NCBI GenBank assembly: GCA_016935315.1
Contig: JAFGRD010000051.1
Span: 35,941 to 99,940, forward strand
Reading direction: 5' to 3'
Source of the DNA: Pirellulales bacterium
GTDB lineage: Bacteria > Planctomycetota > Planctomycetia > Pirellulales > Thermoguttaceae
DNA: 64,000 nucleotides
Below are positions 9,997-59,177 of this stretch, piece by piece. Below the pieces are notes generated by a model, which saw nothing but the letters and a program-made list of their open reading frames with translations, was not told the origin of the DNA and did not search any database. A program made the position numbers and the translations under genes. Position 1 is the stretch's first letter, and the number at the start of each line of letters is the position of its first letter.

Positions 9997-10098
9997 TGTT
10001 GACGTTTGCACCGTCCGCGCGTGAGGGCAACCAACCGGAGCCGGTTTTCTTGGCCTCCCGTTGGTCGTCCTTGACGATTCGCCGTGCAGACATCGTTA
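9997..10098 (-). repeat. 103-bp dispersed repeat, copy A (diverged)
   Basis: It starts TGTTGACGTTTGCA and ends TGCAGACATCGTTA, the terminal inverted repeats of the family. The centre pairs CCAACCGGAG-like sequence with CTCCCGTTGG. This is the most diverged full-length copy (102 bp) and has opposite orientation to copies B and E. It occupies the DNA directly upstream of the YqaA-type gene and shows that the long N-terminal extension of that frame is not protein. Confidence 0.75.
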
Positions 10099-12300: not shown

Positions 12301-12403
12301 TATTGATGTTCGCATTGTGAATGATCCAGGCCGACCAACGGGAGGCCGGACAGGTCGGGCTCCCGTGGGTCACCCTCGCGCATTGAGTGTGCAAGCGTCA
12401 ATA
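12301..12403 (+). repeat. 103-bp dispersed repeat, copy B
   Basis: A full copy that begins TATTGATGTTCGCATTG and ends GCAAGCGTCAATA. The central stem pairs GACCAACGGGAG with CTCCCGTGGGTC around GCCGGACAGGTCGGG. It lies between bioA and the next gene on the same strand and encodes no supportable protein. Confidence 0.9.
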
Positions 12404-27347: not shown

Positions 27348-27450
27348 TATTGACGCTTGCGCCCTCAATGCACGAGGGCGCCCCACGGGAGCCCGACTTG
27401 TCCGGCCTCCCGTGGGTCGGCCTGGATCATTCACAATGCAAACATCAACA
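27348..27450 (-). repeat. 103-bp dispersed repeat, copy C
   Basis: Full copy in reverse orientation, from TATTGACGCTTGCG to GCAAACATCAACA. The stem here is CCCACGGGAG paired with CTCCCGTGGG; relative to copy E an A:T pair has become C:G on both sides. It sits 40 bp upstream of the methyltransferase/reductase start and in front of the divergent GH78-like gene. Confidence 0.9.
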
Positions 27451-30348: not shown

Positions 30349-30415
30349 GCCGGGCGGCCGGACACGTCGGGTCCCCGTTGGTCGCTTTCGCGCATGGAGT
30401 GTGCAAGCGTCAACA
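30349..30415 (+). repeat. 103-bp dispersed repeat, copy D (right half)
   Basis: Only the centre and right half remain (GCGGCCGGACACGTCGGG through GCAAGCGTCAACA). It starts 4 bp after the GH78-like stop codon, in inverted orientation to copy C, so C and D flank that gene. Confidence 0.75.
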
Positions 30416-33705: not shown

Positions 33706-36700
33706 CTACGGCTCGAATCCGGCCAGCAACTGGTCGATCGCCTGGGTCTCGGCCGGCTCCTTGGCCGAGGAACGATGGCTCTTCCACGCGCCGGCTTCGA
33801 ACTCGAAGAGCCAATCGGGCGCGACGTCCGGGTCCCGCGTGCCCGCGGGGCTCAAAGCGCCGAGATCCTCCAGGGCGGCGTCCAGCGCCGCGCTGGTGGC
33901 GACCGGCGCGGCCGGAACCGGCAGCGCCTTGGCGGCCTTGCAGGGAACGGTGATCAGCTTCAGCGCGTTGAGGAAGTGCGTCTGGTTGTTTCGCGCCAAC
34001 AACATGTCCGTGGCGTTGACCCGCTGGTCCCGGTTGTAATCGTACGGGAAGTCGATGGGCGCCGGGTTGAGGAAGGTCCGCGGATTGTTCCGCGCCAAGA
34101 GCATGTCGACCGCGTTGACCTGCGCGTTGGTGGTCGAGTTGCCGGCTTCGCCCACGGCGTTGCCGAAGTAGAAGACGTCGTCCTCGGCCAGGCCGGTGTT
34201 GGCGGTGGCCAGCACCGTGACCTGCAGCCACTGCTTGGCGATATCGTAATTCGGCCAGACGATCGTCACCCGATCGGAGCCACCCACGCCAGCGCCCGGT
34301 CTGACCGTCACGCTGCTCGGCGGCGGCCCGGGGACCCAGGTGCTGGGATTGTTGCTGTTGCCGACCTTGAAGACGAAATCGGCGGCGGTAATCATGGCCG
34401 GCGCCACCGGCAGATCGGCGATGTCGACCATGATGCCGTTGATGCCGGCGGAATAGCTCGTGTAGTTGGCAAAGGTGGCCGTGCCGCACGGCAACAAGGC
34501 CTTCTTGTCGATCGCGATGGCCTTGTCGTCGTTGGCGTTGGCCGCCGGATTGTTGCCGTCCCAGCTCGAATGGTTGTAGAAGATGTGCCGATCGACCACC
34601 TTCGTGTTGATCAGCACCTGGTAGTCCTCGACCTCGCCGTCCGGGGCCGGCCCGTCGACCGGCAGATCGCGGACCGTGCTGAAGCGGAGCCGGGCGAAGG
34701 TGGTGCCGATCCGGGCATCGTCGGGCACGTGGAAACTCACCACGTTGGGTCCGGCAACCAGCGGCACGTTCAGGGCAACCTGTTCGCCCGGATCGGACCA
34801 GTCGCCGTCCTGGTTGAAATCGATCCACCCCTGCAAGAGTCCGGAGCCGGTGGCCACGACGGTCACCTGGGCCGCTTCGCCCGTGACCAACGGCGTGGCG
34901 GCGACGATCCCGTCCTCGTCGTCGTTGCCGTCGTTGTCGTCGCCGGTGGCGAACGGGTCGGGCTGGCCGTCGGGCTCGTGGTCGATGCTTTGCCCCAGGC
35001 GAAGCTCGGGGTCGATCACGTGGCGTGCCCCGTCGTGGACCCGCAGCGTCGGATAGCGCGCGGCAAGGCCGTGATCCGGCGCGTCGCCCCAATCCGTCTC
35101 CGCCGAGACAATCGGCGCGAAGTAGTCCTCCGTTTCGCCGTATTGATATCCGCCGGCCGGGCCGGCGCCGCCGCTGCCGGCGACGCCGGACGCCGGATCA
35201 TGCGGCTGTTCGGCCAGCGTAATCCGCATCCAGGTCGACAGCGGCTCGGCCGAGGTCGCGTCCAACCAGGCCACAAAGGGCGTCGTGGCAAACGTGAAGG
35301 TGCCCGGGCCGCTCAGGTTGATCTGCTGGTTCTGCACGGCCCATTCGTCCACGGGCAATCCGTGCTGGCACTCCATCCGGTCGTCCCAATCGCCGTCGAG
35401 GTTCCAGTCGAACCAGACGTTGACGTAGACCGACCGGTAGAGCGGGTTGATGACCGTGACCGTGAAATCGAACGTGTTCCAGTCGCAGTTGGCCAGCACC
35501 AGCGGCAGCGAGACGCCGTCGTCTGCCCGGTCCAGATCCGGCGTGTCGTCCGGCGGGATCAGGTTGTTGACCATGTCCTCGTCTGGTCCGACGTCGGCCT
35601 CGTTCTCCAGCGTGACCCCGTTGCCCAGATAGGCCAGCTCGCGGGGATTCCAGTGGATCGGCCCCTGGGGCGTTGGTCCGACGGGACTCTGATAGACGGT
35701 TGGATAACGGGCCACCGTGCCCGCCGGGCCGCCCGGTGGATAGGCCGTCATCGGCGTTAGGAAGTTGTTGGTGCTGTCCGGCGCATCGCCCAGATCGGCC
35801 CGCGGCGCCCGCACGATGCGGACTTCGTGGTCCTCGACCTCGCCGTCGGCTGCCGGGCCGCCGGGCTGCAATCCACCTTCGGTGCTGATGCGGAAGCGGG
35901 CGAAGGTTTGGCCCACCACGGAAGTGTTGGGCACAAGGACGGGAATCGTGTGAATTCCGTCGGGCAGATAGCCGGCGTAGATTTGGTCGGAGGCCTGCCA
36001 GAAGCCGTCCCCGTCGATGTCGAGCCAGGCGTCCACGAAGCCGCCGCCCCCGTTGACGTGAACCTGGATCTCGCCCAGCCAACCCTGGACCAGCGTGGGA
36101 ATCTCCACGCCGTCTTCGTCGTCGTTCGGCGGCAGCGGCGAGCTGACGTCGAGGTCGTCGCCCAGGGCGTCGGCGTGCGGCTGGCCGTCGGGATCCGGAT
36201 CGGGCCGGTCGTCGTCGTCGCCCAGCCACGGGCCCGCGATGACGTGACTGGCCCCGCCGTGGATCGCCAGCGTGGGATAGCTGGGCAGGAAGTCGCCATC
36301 GGGGGCATCGCCCCAATCCATCCGCACGTCCTCGAAGGTCAACATGAAGGCCATGTCGATCGAGTCCCGCTCCAGGCCGTGGTACGGGTGGCCCTCCGGA
36401 TACCGTAGCTCCTTCCAGAGCCTCGGCAACTCACTGCCGACGTCGAAAACGGCGTCGTCCATGAAGTGGTCCGGCCACTGCCGGGTCTTCCAGCCAAACG
36501 TGCCCTCCGCCGTGTCGACCTGGATCTCCAGCCAGTAGATGATCGGACGTTCGGGCGTTCCTCGCTGGAGGAAGGCCTCGTCCGGATCGATTTGGACATC
36601 GTACTGCCAGATCTGTTTGTCGCCGCCGGCGACCAGATCGCCCGAGGCCGGATCCCACCACCACTCGCCGGGCGCAGGCACCTCGTAGTAGAGCGATTCG

Positions 36701-39700
36701 GTGAAGTCGTCGCGCGTGAACTCGCCTGCCCAGAGCAACTCGTCCGGCTTTGAGTAGCGATTCTCCGGGTCGACACCGCCGGAGCCGACCGGGTCGTCCG
36801 TGTAGACGGCCAGATGGATGTTCGTGATCTCGCCGACGACATCGTCTTTCCACGAACCCCAGAAGTGAACGTCCGTCAGCAGGCTGGGGAACGTGCACTC
36901 GAAGTCGTCGGCCAGGTGGTGCAGATCGTCCACTCGGATGTCGATTCCATTGACCGTCGTGTCGGGCAACTGCACCCACTTGGTGTTCTCCGCCGGCGAC
37001 CAGATCGTGAGCTTGTGGTCCTCCACCTCGCCGTCGTCGGCCGGGCCGACCGGCGTCAGCCCGCCTTGGCTGCTGATCCGGAATCGGGCGAACGTCTCGC
37101 CCGCCGCGGCGCTGTTGGGCACCGATACGGGGATTGTCTGCACGCCGTCGGGCAGCCAGCCCGCGTGGATCTGCTCGGTCGAGTCCCAGGTGCCGTTGCC
37201 GTCGAAATCGATCCAGGCGTCGAGATAGGCGCCCGCTCCGCCGGCGTGCACGGCGACCGTGATCGGTGTGCTCTGGCCGGCGGCCAGCGGCGGAATGGCC
37301 ACGCCTTCCTCGTCGTCGTAGCCGTGGTGGTCGTCGCCCAGGGCGTCGGGATCGCTGTAGCCGTCCGGCTCCGCGTCGGGCGTGTCGTCGGCGCCGCCCA
37401 GCCACGGGCCGCCGACGATGTGCCGGGCCCCGTCGTGGAGCAGCCAGGTGGGGTAGCTGGCCACGAGGTCGCCGTCCGGAGCGTCGCCGAAGTCCCAACG
37501 CGGCGTCTCGATGCGGACGTAGTGGTCTTCCGTCTCGCCGAAAAGGTACCCGCCGTCCGGCCCCGCGCCCCCGCTGCCGACGACTCCGGCCGTCGGGCCC
37601 CAAGGCTGTTCGGCCAGCGTGATCCGCATCCAGGTTTCCAGCGGCTCCGTGCCCGTCTCGTCGAGCCAGGCCAGGAACTGCGGCGTGGTGACGGTATGCG
37701 TGCCGGGGCCGGGCAAGAAGAGCTGTTGGTTTTGCACGGCCCACTCGGGCACGACCATTCCGTCGTCGCATTGCAGCACGTCGTCCCAGTCGCCGTCGAG
37801 GTTGAAGTCGAACCAGACGTTCACGAAAAGCGGCGGCTGCGGCGGCATGGTATTCTTCAGCGTGACCACGTAGTCGATCGTGTTCGGGGCGCAGTGCGTC
37901 AGCGCCAGTGGCGACTGGATGGCATCGTCGGCGCCGTCGAGGTCCGCCAGATCGGCCCGTGGATCGAGGTTGTTCGTCGGGTCCTCATCCGGCCCGACGT
38001 CGGCCTCGTTCTCCATCGTGACGTCGCGCCCGAGAAACGCCAACGTCTCCGGCAGCAGATGAAGCGGCCCATGGGGCGGCGACCCCGTGTTGTAGACCGT
38101 TGGGAAGTGTGCCACCGTTCCGTCGGGATAGGCCGTCATCGGCACGCCGACGCTGTTGCTGCTGTCCGGGGCGTCGCCCAGATCGTTGCCCGCGATGAAG
38201 ACCTCGTGATCCTCGACTTCGCCGTTGTCGGCCGGGCCGTGCGGCTGGAGTCCGCCGCGGGTGCTGATCCGGAATCGGGCGAACGTCTGGCCGGTGGCCG
38301 CCCTGGAGGGAACCGAAACCGGGATCGTATGCGTGCCCTCGGCCAGAAAACCGTCGTAGATCTGCTCGCTCGCCTGCCAGACGCGGTTGCCGTCGAAGTC
38401 GATCCAGGCCTGGACGACGCCACCCCCGCCGTTGACCTCGACCGTGATCGCGCCGGTCTGCCCCCGAACCAGCGTGGGAATCACCACGCCGTCTTCGTCG
38501 TCGGACATCGACAGGTCGTCGCCGAGGGCGTGGACGTGGGGTTGGCCGTCGCTTTCCGCGTCGGGTGCGTCCTCGTCGTCGCCGAACCAGGGCCCGCGAA
38601 TCGCGTGGCTGGCCCCGTTGTGGACGGCCAAGGTCGGATAGCCGGACACGAGGTCGCCGTCCGGCGCGTCGCCCCAATCGACCCGGCCGACTTCCTGCGT
38701 GGTCAGCACGAAGGCCATGTCCCACGATTCCTCGCGGGTAGGCCAGTAGATCGGCTCACCGGCCCGGTACACGTCCACCGGGTAGGTGAAGTCCACGTGC
38801 AGCGGAACGTCGGCCACGTGCCACGTCTGGCCGCCGTCGATGCTCAGCTCGCAGAAGACGTCGAAGAAGCTGTCCACGCTGAACTGCTCGCCCCCCAGGT
38901 TGGTCCGGACCGTGTGCCCGCCCTCCGACTCGGCCCTCGGCGCCTCGCGAAGCATCACTCCTCCCGGCAGCGGATTGCCGGCCAGCACCATGGAGACGAT
39001 TTCGGTCTCGAAGACCTGCTCGCCGTCGGTGGTCTGATCCGTCACGTTGGTGATCATCATCCGCACCGGCACGCCGGGCAGAGAAATCTCCAGTGGCTCG
39101 ACGTCGCCGGGGCCCTGATAGACGAAGAAGACATCGAAGAACGAGTTGACCTCGACGGTCTCGCCCGCCGGAGGCAGCGGCATCGGATTCTCCTGATCCG
39201 GAACCGAAAGCGTTACGCTGTGAATGCCTGCATGCAGGTCCCCGAAGGTCACGTGGGTGGAAGAAACATACTGGCTGTTGACGACGGGAAACATACCCGG
39301 GTCGCCCAGCGTTGTGCCGAGCGTCGGCGCCGTTGGCTTGAAGATCCGCACGGCGTCGTCGGGCGCCGGCGACTGCGGATCGCGCGGCCGGGTCTTCCAG
39401 CCCCAGGGATGGATCACCTGCGCGTCGTCGCCGTAAACCGCCGAGATGCTGATCCAGTAGATATTGTCGCCCGCTTCCTGCCAGAACCAATCGCTTTGCG
39501 GCAGGTTGTACTCGAAGTAGAACGTCGCCTCCGGCGGCGCGGTCTCGTCGCGCGGGTCGAAGTCCCAGCCGACAAACTCGGCCCCGTAATCGACGGCCTC
39601 GGCCTCCCAGACCAATCGGCCGGGATGGCTGTACGAATCGGGATCGGCGGCGTCGGCGGGCACGTCGGTCCAGAAGCCGATATGGAAGGCCTCGGGCATT

Positions 39701-42700
39701 TCCCCGCCGGGAAGGTGCGCCTCGTCCCAGTTAATGAACGACCCCCACCAGTGAACGTCGGTCACCGGTTGATCCGTGTCGCAAAGCCAGTCGTCGGCCA
39801 CGATCTGATCGCTGCGATAGACCGACGGCTCGTCCCAGCCGTTGTAAGCGTCACGCGGCAGATAGGGCTCGGGCGGCTGCTGCCACTTCGGTTCGGCCGT
39901 GGCCGTGGAGTACAGCTCGAACGCCAGATCCCAAGGTTGCTCCTCGGTGGGCCAGTAGATCGGCTCCCCGGCGTGGAACGTGTCGCCCCACCAGGCCGTC
40001 GTCGGGTCCCAGATCCGCACCGCGGCGTCCGGGGCCGCCGACTCCGGATCGCGCGGGCGCGTCTTCCACCCGAAGACGTGTTCGGGCTGGGCGCCCGTCC
40101 AATAATCGGCTGCGATGCTCACCCAATAGACGTTGTTACCGGCCTCTTGGTAGAATGCCTCGGGCAGCGCGGCCTTGAACTTGAAGGCCGCCTCGTACTG
40201 CCCCACGCCCGACGTCGGGTCCATCGGAATGTCCAGCGGCCGCGGATCGAAGTCCCAGCCGACCCACTCCCAGTCGAACCGACTGATGTCGGCCTCATAG
40301 ACGACCATGTCCGGATGGCTCCAGGGCTGATCGGCGCCGGCCGGCACGTCGCTCCAGATGGCGACGTGGAAGGAATCGGGCAGCACGGGCTCCGCGTCGG
40401 CGCCGGTCCAGTCGAGGAACGAGCCCCACCAGACGAGGTCGGTCACCGGGGCGTCCGTCTCGCAGAGCCAATCATCGGCCGCGATCTGCTCGCCGAAGTA
40501 GACCGAGGGCTCGTTCCAGCCCAACAGCACGTTGTCGGGCTCGGCCGGGTCCGGCGGTTGCTCCCATTTGGTCGAAAGGATGCGGACCTGGTAGTCCTCC
40601 ACTTCGCCGTCGATCGCCGGCCCGTCGTACGGCAGCCCGGCCAGCGAGCTGAACCGGAAGCGGGCGAACGTCTTGCCGGCAACCACCCACGAGGGAACGT
40701 TGAACTGCAGCACGTTGGCGCCGGCAACCAGCGGCTCGTTGAGGAAGATTTGCTCGCCGGCTTCCGCCCACGTGCCGCTGTTGTTGAAGTCGATCCATCC
40801 TTGCAGCAGACCGTCGGCACTGGCCGTGACCGTCACTTGCGCCGTCGCGTTGGGCGACAACAACGTGTCGAACTGCACGCCGTCCTCGTCGTCCAACAGG
40901 CCGAAATCGTCGCCCAGGGCGCACGGATGCGGCTGACCGTCGGCCTCTCCGTCGATGCCGCCGCCGAGATAGAAGCCCGGCCGAATCGCGTGGCGGGCGC
41001 CGTCGCTGGCCAGCAGCGTTGGGTACCCCGCGGCGGTCGAGTGTTCCGGCGCGTCGCCGAAGTCCATCGGCGCGATCCGCACCCGAAAGTCTTCCACTTC
41101 GCCCTCGGCGCCGAAGCCGCCGTAGGACAAACCGCCGTCGTGGCTGAAGCGGAAGCGGGCGAACGTCTCCAGGTCCATCGTCGCCGAGTCCGGCACCGGG
41201 AACACCAGCGAGTTCATTCCGGCAACCAGGGGCTGACTGAAGAAGATCTGATCGCCCGGCTGGGCCCAGCTTACGTCGCCGTTGAAGTCGATCCAAGCGT
41301 CCAGCCGTCCCGGCGCCGAGGCGATCACGTCGACGCGAGCCAGGGAGCCGGGCACCAGGCGCGACGTGAATGCCACGCCGTCCTCGTCGTCGTCGCCCGC
41401 CATGTCGTCGCCCAGAGCGGTCGGATCCGGCTGGCCATCCAACTCGGCGTCCACGCCGTTGCCCAGGTAGAAGCCCTCTTCGAGCACGTGGTGGGCGCCG
41501 CCGCTGATGGCGAGCGTGGGGTAGCCGACCGCCAGCGGGCTGTCCGGCGCGTCGCCGAAGTCCAATGGCGGCCGAACCACGATCTCATAGTCCTCCACCT
41601 CGCCGTCCGGCGCCTCGCCACCGGCCGGCAACAGGCCGGTCGACACGCTGAAGCGGAAGCGGGCAAAGGTCGGCGCGCCGGTGGCGGCGTCGGCGGGCAC
41701 GGCCACATTCAGCAGGTTGGCGCCGGGCGCGAGGCTGTAGCTGGAGTAGATCTTCTCGCCGGGATCCGTCCAGTCGCCGTCGGAATTGAAATCCATCCAC
41801 GCGTTGAGGTAACCCGGCACCGACGCGGTCACCGTGACCAGTGCCATGTGGCCGGCCACCAGATGCGTGTTGAACACCACGCCGTCTTCGTCGTCGACGT
41901 TGGAGTTGTCGTCGCCCATCGCATGGGGATCGGGCTGGCCGTCCTGCTCGGCGTCGATGCTGTCGCCCAAAAAGATGCCCGGAATGACCACGTGGTTGGC
42001 GCCGCTGTGGACCTCCAGCGTCGGATAGCCCGGATCCGAGTAGCTGTCCGGCGCGTCGCCCCAGTCGCGCGGCGTGGTAATCCGGACCGGGTAGTCTTCC
42101 ACCTCGCCGGGGCCGGCCGACCCGTCGTAGGAGAGACCGCCCTCGCGGCTGAAGCGGAATCGAGCAAACGTGGCCTCCTCGATCGAGGCGGAGGCCGGCA
42201 CGAGCACGTTGAGCCAGTTGACCCCGGCGACCAACGGCACGGAGGCGAACACCTGCTCGTTGAAGTCGCCCCAAGAGCCGTTGCCGTTGAAGTCGATCCA
42301 GGCGTCCAGCAGCCCGTCGGCCGACGCGGTGACTTCGATCGTGGCCACTTGCCCGGTGCGCAGCGTCGGAATCAGCACGCCGTCTTCGTCGTCGACGCCG
42401 TGCGTGTCGTCGCCCATCGCATTGTGGTCCGGCTGGCCGTCGATCTCGCTGTCGATCGCGTGTCCCAGGAAGAACTCCGGGTCGATCGTGTGCGAGGCCC
42501 CGTTGTTGATTGCCAACGTCGGATAGGTCGGGTCGGGCGCATCGCCCCAGTCGCGCCGCTCGTGGATCGTCACCTGGTAATCCTCGACCTCGCCGCTCTC
42601 GGCCCGCCCGAAAGGCAGCAACGCCTCATCTCTGTTGGCGATCCGGAAGCGGGCGTAGGTCTCTCCCAGCGTCGCGTTGGCCGGCGGCGTGACGGGAATC

Positions 42701-44373
42701 GTGTGCATGCCGGCGGGCAAGTACCCGTTGTAGATTTGCTCGCCGGGCACGTCCCAGATGTGGTTTCCGTTGTAGTCGATCCACGCGGCCACCATGCCGC
42801 CCGCGTGCACCTGCACGACGATGTTGTTCGCTTGGCCCCGAACCAGGTCCGGAATCGTCACCCCGTCTTCGTCGTCGTTGCCGTCGGCAAGGTCGTCGCC
42901 CATGGCGGCCCCGCTCGGCTGTCCGTCTGCATCCGCGTCCGGCGGATCGGTGCCGTCGCCCAGCCACGGGCCGCGGATCACGTGGCGCGCCCCGTCGTGG
43001 ATCGCCAGCGTCGGATAGCCGGGCACCATGGCGGTGTCCGGAGCGTCGCCCCAGTCCAGCCGCTCCGGCACCAGCGCGCCGCTCCAGTTGGCCAGCGCGT
43101 CGATGTCGTCCTTCAGCGGCTCTTCCAGTAGCGCCGAGGAACTGCCGGTCAGGAAGGAAACGTACAGCATCCGCGGATCCCGCCCGCCCGATTCGTCGGC
43201 GGTGGTCAGCGGATCGTCTTCGTCGACGCTGAAAAGCAGCGCGGCCTCCGACACGGTTCCCGGTTCCTGCTGGAGCCATACAAGCTCGAAAGCGTCGATG
43301 TCGACACCGTGGCGCAGTCCCAGATGGATGGCGTGATCGATCACCTTGACCGGCGCGGCGGCCGCCGCCCCGAGCGTGTAGATGTCGCCCGGATCGAGCC
43401 CGAACGTGCCTTCATGATCGGCGCTGAACAACCACGCCGAGTTGGCACCGTCCACGGCGACCACGTCCAGCGCGTCGACGTCGTCGTCTTCCGCCTCTCC
43501 GGCGTCCGGGTTGGGAGCAAGGCTCTGGTGAATCGTCACTTCATCGGCAACCGCGTAAGTGCTTGCCACGGTCAACACGCCCGGGCTGCCGCCGGGGCCC
43601 AGCGTTACGCCAACGATCTCGTCGGCGTCCGCCGTGGTGCCGTAGAGCTGGCCCGTCGGCGAAGGTTTCGCGACAGGCACGTTGGAGGTCGGCCATCCCT
43701 CGGCCTCGTCGTCGTCGAACGAGATCGCCAGGTGGCCCAGTGCCATCACGCAGTTCGAGGAGAAATGCGGAATGGGAGCCTGCAAGGCGGCGTCGGGGGG
43801 AATCTGCTCGATCAGCGGGCCGTCGACCTGGTCGTGGCCGTCCAGGTCGAAGAACTCGCGGTAGTCCGACACGCCGCCCGCGCCGACCGGGACCGCCGTG
43901 GCCGGAGGATTGGCCAGGTCCGGCGGGTCGGGATTCGGGTCGACCCCGAAAATTGTCTCGTCGTCTCTGAAGCCGTCGCGTCCCCCCGGATCCACCGGGC
44001 TGCTCTGCCACTGGTAGACGTCGCCTGGATCGAAACCCTCGTTGCCGTCGGCGTTCGGATCGCTCAGCTCGGCGTCCGATCCGATGTCGACCGAGAACTC
44101 GAAAAGAAAATCGGCCTTTGCCGCCGCCAGTTCACTGCCGGCCAGCAAGCTCTCGTCCGGCGGCAAGTCGCCGTCGGGACCTTGGCCGATCGACAGCAGC
44201 CGACGGTCTTCCAGCGGCTCGAAGTTGGAGCGCCGCGACCGCGTAGCTTGCCGTTGCAACTCCTTGCCGGGCCTCTTCGCCAAACGGCCCCAGCGGTGGA
44301 GCCAACGGGCAAGTTGTTCACGCCTGCTCCTCGGCGCAGGACGACGTGTGCGATTCGGTCGGGACTCTTTCAT
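33706..44373 (-). CDS. Giant secreted GEVED-repeat protein with planctomycete LEPR-type motif and dockerin-like C-terminus
   Basis: A 3555-residue protein. An arginine-rich N-terminus leads to FEPLEDRRLLS (51-61), a motif common at the start of huge secreted planctomycete proteins. Eleven units start DxGDAPD and end GEVEDYxV or GEVEDHxV (GEVED domains, ~160-200 residues), each rich in DDEDGV acidic calcium-like loops. Between units 5 and 6 there are two WLCxTDxPVTDxxWWGSF modules, and a diverged third (ECTFPSLLTDVHFWGSW) after unit 8. Near the C-terminus (~3400-3460) two dockerin-like repeats occur, VNAVDMLLARNN and VNATDMLLARNN. It is presumably extracellular and adhesive or structural. ATG 44373 has GAGGATGA upstream. 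Tandem-repeat DNA here is prone to misassembly. Confidence 0.85.
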   Translation of the reverse strand: MKESRPNRTRRPAPRSRREQLARWLHRWGRLAKRPGKELQRQATRSRRSNFEPLEDRRLLSIGQGPDGDLPPDESLLAGSELAAAKADFLFEFSVDIGSDAELSDPNADGNEGFDPGDVYQWQSSPVDPGGRDGFRDDETIFGVDPNPDPPDLANPPATAVPVGAGGVSDYREFFDLDGHDQVDGPLIEQIPPDAALQAPIPHFSSNCVMALGHLAISFDDDEAEGWPTSNVPVAKPSPTGQLYGTTADADEIVGVTLGPGGSPGVLTVASTYAVADEVTIHQSLAPNPDAGEAEDDDVDALDVVAVDGANSAWLFSADHEGTFGLDPGDIYTLGAAAAAPVKVIDHAIHLGLRHGVDIDAFELVWLQQEPGTVSEAALLFSVDEDDPLTTADESGGRDPRMLYVSFLTGSSSALLEEPLKDDIDALANWSGALVPERLDWGDAPDTAMVPGYPTLAIHDGARHVIRGPWLGDGTDPPDADADGQPSGAAMGDDLADGNDDEDGVTIPDLVRGQANNIVVQVHAGGMVAAWIDYNGNHIWDVPGEQIYNGYLPAGMHTIPVTPPANATLGETYARFRIANRDEALLPFGRAESGEVEDYQVTIHERRDWGDAPDPTYPTLAINNGASHTIDPEFFLGHAIDSEIDGQPDHNAMGDDTHGVDDEDGVLIPTLRTGQVATIEVTASADGLLDAWIDFNGNGSWGDFNEQVFASVPLVAGVNWLNVLVPASASIEEATFARFRFSREGGLSYDGSAGPGEVEDYPVRITTPRDWGDAPDSYSDPGYPTLEVHSGANHVVIPGIFLGDSIDAEQDGQPDPHAMGDDNSNVDDEDGVVFNTHLVAGHMALVTVTASVPGYLNAWMDFNSDGDWTDPGEKIYSSYSLAPGANLLNVAVPADAATGAPTFARFRFSVSTGLLPAGGEAPDGEVEDYEIVVRPPLDFGDAPDSPLAVGYPTLAISGGAHHVLEEGFYLGNGVDAELDGQPDPTALGDDMAGDDDEDGVAFTSRLVPGSLARVDVIASAPGRLDAWIDFNGDVSWAQPGDQIFFSQPLVAGMNSLVFPVPDSATMDLETFARFRFSHDGGLSYGGFGAEGEVEDFRVRIAPMDFGDAPEHSTAAGYPTLLASDGARHAIRPGFYLGGGIDGEADGQPHPCALGDDFGLLDDEDGVQFDTLLSPNATAQVTVTASADGLLQGWIDFNNSGTWAEAGEQIFLNEPLVAGANVLQFNVPSWVVAGKTFARFRFSSLAGLPYDGPAIDGEVEDYQVRILSTKWEQPPDPAEPDNVLLGWNEPSVYFGEQIAADDWLCETDAPVTDLVWWGSFLDWTGADAEPVLPDSFHVAIWSDVPAGADQPWSHPDMVVYEADISRFDWEWVGWDFDPRPLDIPMDPTSGVGQYEAAFKFKAALPEAFYQEAGNNVYWVSIAADYWTGAQPEHVFGWKTRPRDPESAAPDAAVRIWDPTTAWWGDTFHAGEPIYWPTEEQPWDLAFELYSTATAEPKWQQPPEPYLPRDAYNGWDEPSVYRSDQIVADDWLCDTDQPVTDVHWWGSFINWDEAHLPGGEMPEAFHIGFWTDVPADAADPDSYSHPGRLVWEAEAVDYGAEFVGWDFDPRDETAPPEATFYFEYNLPQSDWFWQEAGDNIYWISISAVYGDDAQVIHPWGWKTRPRDPQSPAPDDAVRIFKPTAPTLGTTLGDPGMFPVVNSQYVSSTHVTFGDLHAGIHSVTLSVPDQENPMPLPPAGETVEVNSFFDVFFVYQGPGDVEPLEISLPGVPVRMMITNVTDQTTDGEQVFETEIVSMVLAGNPLPGGVMLREAPRAESEGGHTVRTNLGGEQFSVDSFFDVFCELSIDGGQTWHVADVPLHVDFTYPVDVYRAGEPIYWPTREESWDMAFVLTTQEVGRVDWGDAPDGDLVSGYPTLAVHNGASHAIRGPWFGDDEDAPDAESDGQPHVHALGDDLSMSDDEDGVVIPTLVRGQTGAITVEVNGGGGVVQAWIDFDGNRVWQASEQIYDGFLAEGTHTIPVSVPSRAATGQTFARFRISTRGGLQPHGPADNGEVEDHEVFIAGNDLGDAPDSSNSVGVPMTAYPDGTVAHFPTVYNTGSPPHGPLHLLPETLAFLGRDVTMENEADVGPDEDPTNNLDPRADLADLDGADDAIQSPLALTHCAPNTIDYVVTLKNTMPPQPPLFVNVWFDFNLDGDWDDVLQCDDGMVVPEWAVQNQQLFLPGPGTHTVTTPQFLAWLDETGTEPLETWMRITLAEQPWGPTAGVVGSGGAGPDGGYLFGETEDHYVRIETPRWDFGDAPDGDLVASYPTWLLHDGARHIVGGPWLGGADDTPDAEPDGYSDPDALGDDHHGYDDEEGVAIPPLAAGQSTPITVAVHAGGAGAYLDAWIDFDGNGTWDSTEQIHAGWLPDGVQTIPVSVPNSAAAGETFARFRISSQGGLTPVGPADDGEVEDHKLTIWSPAENTKWVQLPDTTVNGIDIRVDDLHHLADDFECTFPSLLTDVHFWGSWKDDVVGEITNIHLAVYTDDPVGSGGVDPENRYSKPDELLWAGEFTRDDFTESLYYEVPAPGEWWWDPASGDLVAGGDKQIWQYDVQIDPDEAFLQRGTPERPIIYWLEIQVDTAEGTFGWKTRQWPDHFMDDAVFDVGSELPRLWKELRYPEGHPYHGLERDSIDMAFMLTFEDVRMDWGDAPDGDFLPSYPTLAIHGGASHVIAGPWLGDDDDRPDPDPDGQPHADALGDDLDVSSPLPPNDDEDGVEIPTLVQGWLGEIQVHVNGGGGFVDAWLDIDGDGFWQASDQIYAGYLPDGIHTIPVLVPNTSVVGQTFARFRISTEGGLQPGGPAADGEVEDHEVRIVRAPRADLGDAPDSTNNFLTPMTAYPPGGPAGTVARYPTVYQSPVGPTPQGPIHWNPRELAYLGNGVTLENEADVGPDEDMVNNLIPPDDTPDLDRADDGVSLPLVLANCDWNTFDFTVTVINPLYRSVYVNVWFDWNLDGDWDDRMECQHGLPVDEWAVQNQQINLSGPGTFTFATTPFVAWLDATSAEPLSTWMRITLAEQPHDPASGVAGSGGAGPAGGYQYGETEDYFAPIVSAETDWGDAPDHGLAARYPTLRVHDGARHVIDPELRLGQSIDHEPDGQPDPFATGDDNDGNDDEDGIVAATPLVTGEAAQVTVVATGSGLLQGWIDFNQDGDWSDPGEQVALNVPLVAGPNVVSFHVPDDARIGTTFARLRFSTVRDLPVDGPAPDGEVEDYQVLINTKVVDRHIFYNHSSWDGNNPAANANDDKAIAIDKKALLPCGTATFANYTSYSAGINGIMVDIADLPVAPAMITAADFVFKVGNSNNPSTWVPGPPPSSVTVRPGAGVGGSDRVTIVWPNYDIAKQWLQVTVLATANTGLAEDDVFYFGNAVGEAGNSTTNAQVNAVDMLLARNNPRTFLNPAPIDFPYDYNRDQRVNATDMLLARNNQTHFLNALKLITVPCKAAKALPVPAAPVATSAALDAALEDLGALSPAGTRDPDVAPDWLFEFEAGAWKSHRSSAKEPAETQAIDQLLAGFEP

Positions 44374-45176
44374 GGTCTCATCCTCGAAAAAGTGAGTTTG
44401 CCGGGCTGCACGACGGCGGCCCGCGACGGAAAGACGGGAGTTCGCTGCGCGCGGCGCCCCCCAGGCACCGCGCAGGGGAGTGCCCGGCCATGACGCCGGG
44501 TACGCAAACAGAGGCCAGCCGCAGAAGAAAGAACTGTCGCCGCAACAAACAGTGGATGAAACGGTGGATGAAATGCCCGGGACCGCCGACGAGCGAACCG
44601 GCAACCGGTGGTTGTCTCGGGCGAAAACGATGCCGCGGATCGGCTTGTCCGAGTCGCCTCGTTCATCTCCGCTGCTGCCTTAATGCAAAAGCACCACTGC
44701 GAACCAGCCAAAGGCAGCGATGGCGTAACCTCGCATTCTATTCGTGAAGCACCCTACCCCAGATCGCCGCTCGAGACTCGGAACGAGACACTCCTCGTGC
44801 GAGACCCCGGTGGTCCGCACGCCCCTTCCTCAGGCCCATCCGTTCACGTGAGGCTCAACGAAGCAAGTCGTTCCCCGGTGCTACGCCTTCGCGCCCTGGG
44901 CTGCGTTCATCCCCGTCCGGCCGGCGGCTCCCACTCCGTCAAATACCGACTCTTGACGCGCTGGACCACACGCCACCGCTGCCAGACACCTATACCCGGA
45001 AATTCCGTAGAATATGTACCAACGGTAATCAAGTCAGCCAATTTGTCAAGAATCTGGTGAGCGCGACCCGGCGAATCGCAGAAAAAGGGAGAATCTCCCC
45101 TGCTGAAGTGGGGTGTTCGCCGGGCGCCGGAAACTCGCAGAAGATGCAAGTGCGGAAGCCATCGAGGCCAACCGCT
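44374..45176. other. 800-bp intergenic region upstream of the giant gene
   Basis: No gene I can support. Short reading frames on both strands (e.g. 44608-45060 and 44907-45149) lack ribosome-binding sites and recognisable sequence. The giant gene's promoter must lie here but I could not place it. Confidence 0.5.
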
Positions 45177-58482: not shown

Positions 58483-58942
58483 GAGCATCAGGTCCAAAAA
58501 ACTCGTTCGGCGCTGAATGGCAGGCATTTTCGGGTATCACAGCGCAGTGCAGCGGCGGTCGATGCCACCCTCGATCGGGTGGTATAGAGAATGGAGGTGC
58601 CAGCCGTGCGAAAGAGAGCGATTTCTGTTCGTCAACATCTGAAGGGCCCTTCTCCGCCGCCCTGGGCTCGTAGTGCTTGAGCAGCCCACCGAGAAACTCA
58701 TGGCGGACGACGTCTTCCTCTTGCCAGAACAGTTGGCCCGGTCCGCCGGCAGTCGAGGCCATCGGGATCCGAAAGTCGAACCGGCCGGCATAGCCGGACG
58801 TCATCCGGACGCCACCTGCCGCCAAGCCCGGCTTCGCGGAAGGCTCCGCCAACCAGTCACCAATGGCAAGAGCGAGGAAGCATCTTTCATGCCGACGCTT
58901 TGGGAACGACCACCTTTCCGGATCAGGCACTTACGAGTATTC
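58483..58942. other. Intergenic stretch without a supportable gene
   Basis: A minus-strand frame crosses here but lacks a ribosome-binding site and any recognisable domain. It is probably continuing gene debris; the 103-bp repeat copy E follows. Confidence 0.45.
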
Positions 58943-59045
58943 TATTGATGTTTGCATTGTGGATGATCCAGGCCGACCAACGGGAGGCCGGAAAAACCGG
59001 GCTCCCGTTGGTCGCCCTCGCGCACTGACAGTGCAAGCGTCAATA
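58943..59045 (+). repeat. 103-bp dispersed repeat, copy E
   Basis: The cleanest copy: TATTGATGTTTGCATTG at the left, TGCAAGCGTCAATA at the right. The central stem CGACCAACGGGAG pairs perfectly with CTCCCGTTGGTCG across GCCGGAAAAACCGGG. It lies in front of the DUF1295 gene, at the right edge of the decayed region. Confidence 0.92.
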
Positions 59046-59177
59046 GGCGGACGAGCCGGAGTACGCTTAGCGAGCGACTTCAGCCATGTTTGGCCCCCCC
59101 AGAAGGTCCCATAACGGCCGCGGTTCAAATGCCGATTTCGGATAGGCGAGCACGGCGGGAATGACATTCAGAGGGCG

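Follow-up and report, generated by a model that had tools for sequence, protein, structure and literature searches.

A probable IS630-type MITE with a conserved internal hairpin in planctomycete genomes

The dispersed palindromes of about 100 bp found in a 64,000-nt stretch of planctomycete DNA (hereafter the window) probably represent, as judged from sequence comparison, a non-coding IS630-type MITE that has inserted at YTAR, duplicating 2 bp. IS630-family transposases whose own elements have matching ends are likely to move it in trans, and a hairpin in its interior is likely required in cis for mobilisation. The element is of a known kind, and the present variant has a structured core that is conserved across the order. 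As in IS630-type MITEs, its copies are short, repeated and bordered by terminal inverted repeats, they are associated with a TA duplication, and their ends are common to IS630 elements of related genomes. A core length of ~100 bp excludes that the element itself encodes a transposase. No description of this family was found in the literature covered, which left out most subscription journals.

The original prediction listed five copies in the window, and all of them were recovered:

58943..59045 (core 58945-59043), plus strand: full copy E, TA + 99-bp core + TA, with the TTGATG end first and the motif end (TTGAC) on the right
58945..58968, plus strand: terminal inverted repeat of copy E, TTGATG-type end
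59020..59043, minus strand: terminal inverted repeat of copy E, TTGAC-type (motif) end
58971..58989, plus strand: internal hairpin of copy E, GGCC-GACCAACGGGA-GGCC, second motif copy
58999..59017, minus strand: internal hairpin of copy E, GGGC-GACCAACGGGA-GCCC, at the position used by relatives in the order
12301..12403 (core 12303-12401), plus strand: full copy
27348..27450 (core 27350-27448), minus strand: full copy with one-sided TA loss
9997..10098 (core 9999-10096), minus strand: full but diverged copy with one-sided TA loss
30351..30415, plus strand: truncated copy, right half

The full cores of the window measure 98, 99, 99 and 99 bp and, together with a TA-sized flank on each side, give units of 102-103 bp. 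They begin with TTGA and finish with TCAA, or variants of these, and have TA on one or both sides. The end pattern CTATTGAYGTTTGCA, with up to 3 mismatches allowed, matched the window 9 times compared to 1.01 +/- 0.94 times in shuffled sequences, and the copy at 58942-59046, when folded as RNA, forms a single long imperfect hairpin (z = -12.1). All five copies lie between predicted genes, as had been claimed, according to a home-made gene finder that was also used to assign the gene context of all other copies. At 33706-44604 on the minus strand the window additionally holds a 3,632-aa open frame with 11 GEVED and 3 DUF7901 stretches.

A first BLAST look at the 7.10-Mb source genome scored the best 40 of 446 candidates. 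A profile search with a model built from 37 copies minus duplicates and cut ones detected 89 non-overlapping copies, 76 of them full length, in 1.196 Mb (seven whole or nearly whole contigs, about a sixth of the genome), which extrapolates to a family size of ~530 copies in 7.10 Mb. The lack of further copies in the genome, which would have counted against the original prediction, is therefore not observed. One of the 76 full copies was set aside, leaving 75 placed cores for the end and target statistics. A length of exactly 99 bp was found for 64 of these 75, in agreement with the near-constant length noticed beforehand; most full cores read TTGATG...CGTCAA and are flanked by YTA/TAR. Copies also stand at the start of contig C22 and at the end of contig C14, and assemblies may therefore be interrupted by members of the family. 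Four remnants of 25 bp that resemble YTATTGAYGYTTGCACAGTCAATAR (C51:151793, C65:102002, C78:76087 and C78:175920) look like excision scars, from which the palindrome would have been lost between short TCAAT direct repeats. Two further repeat families were encountered in this genome. One, CTGCACTTTCTGAAAAAACGGCAC-YTAR..., has 16 matches in the 1.196 Mb (C51:104255, C97:34504 and others) and is itself a landing site of the MITE; the other, up to ~205 bp long, occurs at C78:13381-13640 and about 20 other places, with many copies ending in ...TTGTTCTTTTGCGAGTCC beside TTAG or CTAA and some adjoining a MITE.

TA is kept on both sides of 33 of the 75 placed copies, 30 of which have the form YTA...TAR compared to 5.4% of genomic NTAN, and is missing on one or both sides of the other 42. 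Among 48 copies with placeable ends from related genomes, 38 are of the form YTA...TAR. Two filled/empty pairs were available for comparison. In the first, the copy at C97:106008, located inside another repeat, was compared to the uninterrupted paralogue C51:61263-61407, and the alignment through the junction showed 87.6% identity over 145 bp with a single TTAG; five further paralogues of this site are uninterrupted over shorter stretches. The second pair, from another family, consists of copy L176 of genome G481 and the same-genus orthologue in G554, which aligned through the junction without gap once one TA was removed, the target in G554 now being CA instead of TA. In both pairs the insertion thus added the core plus 2 bp. 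These data show that the element has inserted at TA (YTAR) with a duplication of 2 bp, and together with the end matches described below they bear out the part of the original prediction that had considered mobilisation and a MITE family. The first ~145 bases of the query used at the second site (L176:601-2500) match about 40 places each in G105, G554 and G557 and belong to a large paralogous gene family.

IS630-family elements of ~1.1 kb have the same target as the MITE and, in some genomes, nearly the same ends. Their transposases match DDE_3 and NCBIfam transpos_IS630; the cut-off of the latter was exceeded by one of three pieces. In the source genome, IS630 pieces were located in contigs C149, C74 and C77. 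The C149 element and a related element of G026, a genome of the family to which the source genome belongs, have a 1,100-bp IS630 structure with TTGACCTTCGCAGAAGTAGTGA-like ends, which in G026 are perfect and located at CTA...TAA. When scored with the MITE end profile, the ends of C149 reach only 13.5 and 7.9 bits; of C77 and C74, only pieces are present. No intact IS630 element with MITE-grade ends was seen in the source genome, implying that the mobiliser has been lost, is missing from the assembly or resides elsewhere. Scanning of the named genomes detected 68 relatives of the C149/G026 transposase. TA-flanked ends matching at 15 or more of 24 positions were present at 44 of the 59 loci tested from this set, in a search that required the TA flank, and 37 of these 44 are located at YTA...TAR.

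The IS630 element that matches the MITE end profile best is L200, with 29.8 and 31.3 bits at its two ends. On this profile the median MITE reaches 27.7 bits, and the background maximum was 21.2 bits in 1.35 million positions (one profile); when both end profiles were run over all 1.196 Mb, the highest other places scored 25.9 and 23.4 bits, some of them perhaps being lone MITE ends. L200 and the MITE end of G032 agree at 23 of 24 positions. L200 comes from a MAG labelled Deltaproteobacteria, where it lies on a contig of 3.9 kb; a search of this MAG with model R1 gave no MITE among the best 150 of 2321 candidates. Transposases like that of L200 were found in 23 of 396 genomes of the order, and the C77 piece of the source genome shares 73% identity with it over 79 residues. 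Twenty-nine IS630 loci of the order were scored: two had both ends above 21.2 bits, three more had one such end and the other 24, some of which are cut, stayed below. The two with both ends high, in G555 (ends of 24.6 and 27.1 bits) and G650 (23.5 and 26.2 bits), are complete 1.1-kb elements, and one high end only was observed in the C77 remnant (26.5 bits), G067 and G532. The IS of G481 matches the MITE end of the same genome at 20 of 24 positions and other MITEs at 16 at most; the IS and MITE of G481 share a lineage-specific end. When local IS and local MITE were compared in seven genomes, the fit was best in G481, tied in G555 and not best in the remaining five.

Alternatively, the family may be a relic that was mobilised long ago in the order and is now merely inherited and decaying in the source genome. 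This is a realistic possibility, to which we nevertheless give less than even weight. It would be consistent with the state of the IS630 copies of this genome, which are pieces or poorly matched, and with the finding that no two of the 64 full-length copies in 1.196 Mb are identical at 97 or more of 99 positions. Against this, copies L007 and L020, located on different contigs of the source genome, are identical at 98 of 99 positions, and copies L139 and L140 of G035 have identical cores at different sites, which indicates recent movement in that genome; some copies have thus moved recently.

The hairpin GGSC-GA-CC-AAC-GG-GA-GSCC lies at a nearly fixed distance from one end of the element and served as the pattern for searches of other genomes. 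It was present in exact form in 31 of 396 genomes of the order, which is an upper count since at least one occurrence (G649, L319) has no element frame and looks like chance; conversely, the exact pattern misses motif variants such as most G111 and all G101 copies. Among 31 motif frames from the order, six have no clear ends. Elements of ~100 bp with placeable ends occur in eleven families (f1, f2, f3, f4, f7, f9, f12, f13, f14, f16 and f19), and the order carrying them is likely Pirellulales. A DNA search of 147 genomes, including the source genome, gave matches in 27. In a phylum sample the exact pattern matched 6 of 392 genomes, with only G290 outside the order. Model R1, applied to the same phylum with 10 candidates scored per genome, hit at least 4 of 392 genomes and missed three later motif carriers (including G469 and G290), so that the pattern searches were relied on instead; in G111, it gave 97 matches of E < 1e-9 among the best 150 candidates scored. 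Phage and plasmid collections contained no match to the element. Three viral contigs of IMG/VR hold the exact motif, one of them (L339) in an element-like frame with one end degraded and the other two without such a frame.

The relative loci had been found with a motif-holding query and a finder that also required the motif. One of 68 such loci gave nothing, 19 were dropped as their ends could not be placed, and 48 were kept. Alignment A2 comprises 40 rows, 34 from these 48 relatives and six from the source genome, and alignment A4, also of 40 rows, comprises two copies of the source genome, 23 of the 48 and 15 of 33 that were placed later (34 tried), adding three families; the pair counts from both alignments describe intact elements. 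Because this selection was biased toward the motif, three genomes were scanned by ends only, with one mismatch allowed per anchor, a spacing of 90-112 bp and complementary arms. Anchors TATTGA...TCAATA picked 35 places in the 1.196 Mb of the source genome compared to 0 with four scrambled anchors, and 16 places in 400 kb of G111 compared to one. The hairpin, with up to 3 mismatches, was present in all of these (35/35 and 16/16) and in 7/7 picks of G475, in total 58/58.

Counted from the start of the TTGA end, the hairpin begins 26 or 27 bases further on in 38/40 rows of A2 and 39/40 rows of A4. In both alignments the ends tend to be asymmetric, with mostly TTGAC/TTGAG at the hairpin end and TTGATG/TTGATN, read as reverse complement, at the other. 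Both arms carry the hairpin only in the source genome and G044 among the genomes looked at, a state that is probably derived; as a result, the whole element is a palindrome in the source genome. The exact hairpin pattern occurs 268 times in this entire genome, up to twice per element. With up to 2 mismatches it occurs 153 times in the 1.196 Mb, 146 times in elements and seven times outside, six of the latter in predicted genes. Divergence in copies of the source genome amounts to 0.065-0.072 in the hairpin compared to 0.114-0.125 in the outer arms. Near the ends of autonomous IS630 elements the hairpin was absent in the 10 looked at, suggesting that a transposase can move its own element without it and that it is no leftover of IS ends.

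RNAalifold applied to A2 without guidance recovered only the six pairs of the hairpin. Stem pair 34-48 of A4 is G-C in 23 rows, C-G in 16 and U-A in one, without a break in 40 rows; four of the six hairpin pairs are invariant in A4 and carry no covariation information. The two free positions of the search pattern, which were not forced to pair, are complementary in 109 of 110 places among the matches listed, and in 50 of 52 exact matches in the 1.196 Mb of the source genome. All 24 named pairs of A4 taken together pair in 90.5% of cells, compared to 82.1% in shuffles and 24-45% when slid. Covariation is also seen in the outer arms, where shared recognition of both ends by a transposase would produce it as well. 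Between genomes, the compensation of stem changes that had been proposed is strong, and the example from which it had been deduced, an A:T pair in the copy at 58943 that is C:G in the copy at 27348, is correct. Inside the source genome there is no such trend: of 34 consensus pairs changed on both sides in 64 full-length copies, 13 still pair, about what random double changes would give (4/9 for a G-C pair, by our own reckoning), so that compensation is not above chance. Selection on a structured unit, as put forward in the original prediction, is therefore supported by the covarying stem between genomes and not by the double changes within this one.

The combination of a covarying stem and an almost invariant loop is a typical feature of RNA. 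The same MITE could thus carry the hairpin as an RNA-level payload for the host or for itself, such as a transcript stabiliser, a processing site or a small RNA, and not for transposition; we consider this rather unlikely. The location of the copies would suit such a role, as 85 of 89 lie between predicted genes, three within and one at an edge, in sequence of which 12.5% is intergenic, at median distances of 36.5 bp from the 3' ends and 120 bp from the 5' ends of flanking genes. In contrast, the 48 copies between tandem genes have no strand preference toward their neighbours (26 same, 22 opposite), and no Rfam family reached threshold in the window; four further loci gave one sub-threshold match, to Acido-Lenti-1 in a G290 locus (E 0.98). 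Replication-strand bias as judged by GC skew was not seen either in the source genome (29/24 vs 10/12); the corresponding counts in G111 are 8, 6, 3 and 1. In G475:C5:400001-800000, 8 of 9 motif copies are on one strand, a possible bias without counterpart in the source genome. An apparently strand-specific wobble in the outer arms (138 A.C vs 36 G.T cells in 48 relatives) was discarded as RNA evidence, much of it falling at mostly non-pairing columns. Since the hairpin is present in all end-defined copies, diverges little compared to the arms and shows no gene-directed strand preference, we favour a role as a cis-acting aid to mobilisation over a host function.

The original prediction had likened the element to REP/BIME families and suggested a TnpA_REP-type mobiliser. 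It is very improbable that the copies are REP/BIME-like units moved by a RAYT (Y1 transposase) recognising the hairpin. This idea draws on G290, a planctomycete of another class, in which the same 19 bases head GTAG-type REPs, GTAGCCCAGGGC-GACC-NNN-GGGA-GCCCTGGG and variants (L340, L341), with triloops AAC, GAA, AAA, GAG and CCC, beside a Y1_Tnp gene. However, the YTAR target, the 2-bp duplication and the IS630-like ends assign the element to the IS630-type MITEs and not to REP/BIME, and very few rows (2/40 in A2, 1/40 in A4) have a GTAG in the 16 bases preceding the hairpin; on the grounds of target, ends and the general lack of GTAG we rejected the REP/BIME reading. A TnpA_REP-type mobiliser likewise does not agree with ends and target of the DDE/IS630 kind, and the only Y1_Tnp match of the source genome is an atypical domain (C97:1-1948, L031) that does not correspond to a standard RAYT and is embedded in a long, partly repetitive open frame. 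The G290 occurrence, one genome in 392, may be chance, as the reversed control pattern also matched one genome of the phylum sample once. Should it be more than chance, two unrelated transposition systems make use of one and the same hairpin module. We regard it as unlikely, if less so than a RAYT-moved REP, that the element is a hybrid in which IS630 (DDE) ends are combined with a REP-type hairpin core that has been preserved for as long as the order has existed, with a second protein (a transposase partner, a RAYT-like protein or a replication factor) controlling its spread. If true, the GA-CC-NNN-GG-GA head would be a recognition module common to both systems.

For the IS630-type MITE that we favour, excision would be the task of a transposase from this IS630 group, bound at the TTGA ends. 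As a DDE enzyme, it would cut at TTGA/TCAA and insert at YTAR with TA duplicated. The hairpin, in which tandem G.A mismatches would separate the covarying stem from a triloop-capped CC/GG stem, may form in single-stranded DNA or RNA. It may be bound by the transposase or a helper, in which case copies without it would leave no descendants; these two steps concerning the hairpin are the least certain. Since the tandem G.A mismatches would form on one strand only, binding to one strand, as ssDNA or RNA, is predicted. In the source genome the other arm likely gained the hairpin too, which would have made the element a full palindrome.

MITEs are usually viewed as leftovers of insertion sequences with an interior that is free to drift. 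In the present element, some of the interior is conserved to the same degree as the ends across eleven families of an order, has a covarying stem and is absent near the autonomous IS ends looked at. This raises the question of which features other than the ends enable a MITE to outrun its parent, which can be tested directly with a 100-bp construct. The element would also explain the presence of hundreds of intergenic palindromes in genomes like the one analysed here.

Among known systems, GTAG-type REPs with their RAYTs (described in the available part of PMC3733652) share the identical hairpin head in the case of the G290 REPs, but the present element as a rule lacks GTAG and has another target and other ends. 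IS630 insertion sequences have matching ends and the TA target in common with it; they are, however, autonomous and ~1.1 kb long, and have no hairpin near their ends in the 10 looked at. RUP, ERIC and Correia elements were compared with the present family by their descriptions, as given in the accessible portions of the sources cited. Correia/NEMIS elements of Neisseria are likewise MITEs with TA ends and terminal inverted repeats and have structured transcripts, but these portions mention them from Neisseria only and describe an IHF site, not a covarying hairpin, as their internal motif (PMC2229807, PMC10969869). ERIC elements (127 bp) resemble the present element in having terminal inverted repeats, TA at their ends and a mostly intergenic location, and occur in two families with 30 to 711 copies (PMC2229807, PMC10969869). 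Compared by description only, they differ in size, and the accessible text states that no DNA motif besides the terminal inverted repeats was found in them (PMC2229807). The element likely works like RUP of pneumococcus with IS630-Spn1, by analogy. RUP is 107 bp long and non-coding, has IS630-like terminal inverted repeats, inserts at TA and reaches 108-110 copies, and its host range covers pneumococcus, to a lesser degree S. mitis and, rarely, other streptococci (PMC2229807, PMC3049150, as far as the accessible parts describe it); its movement by IS630-Spn1 is there a proposal (PMC2229807). Those parts report no functional motif for RUP (PMC2229807, PMC3049150), whereas the present family spans eleven families and carries a covarying hairpin.
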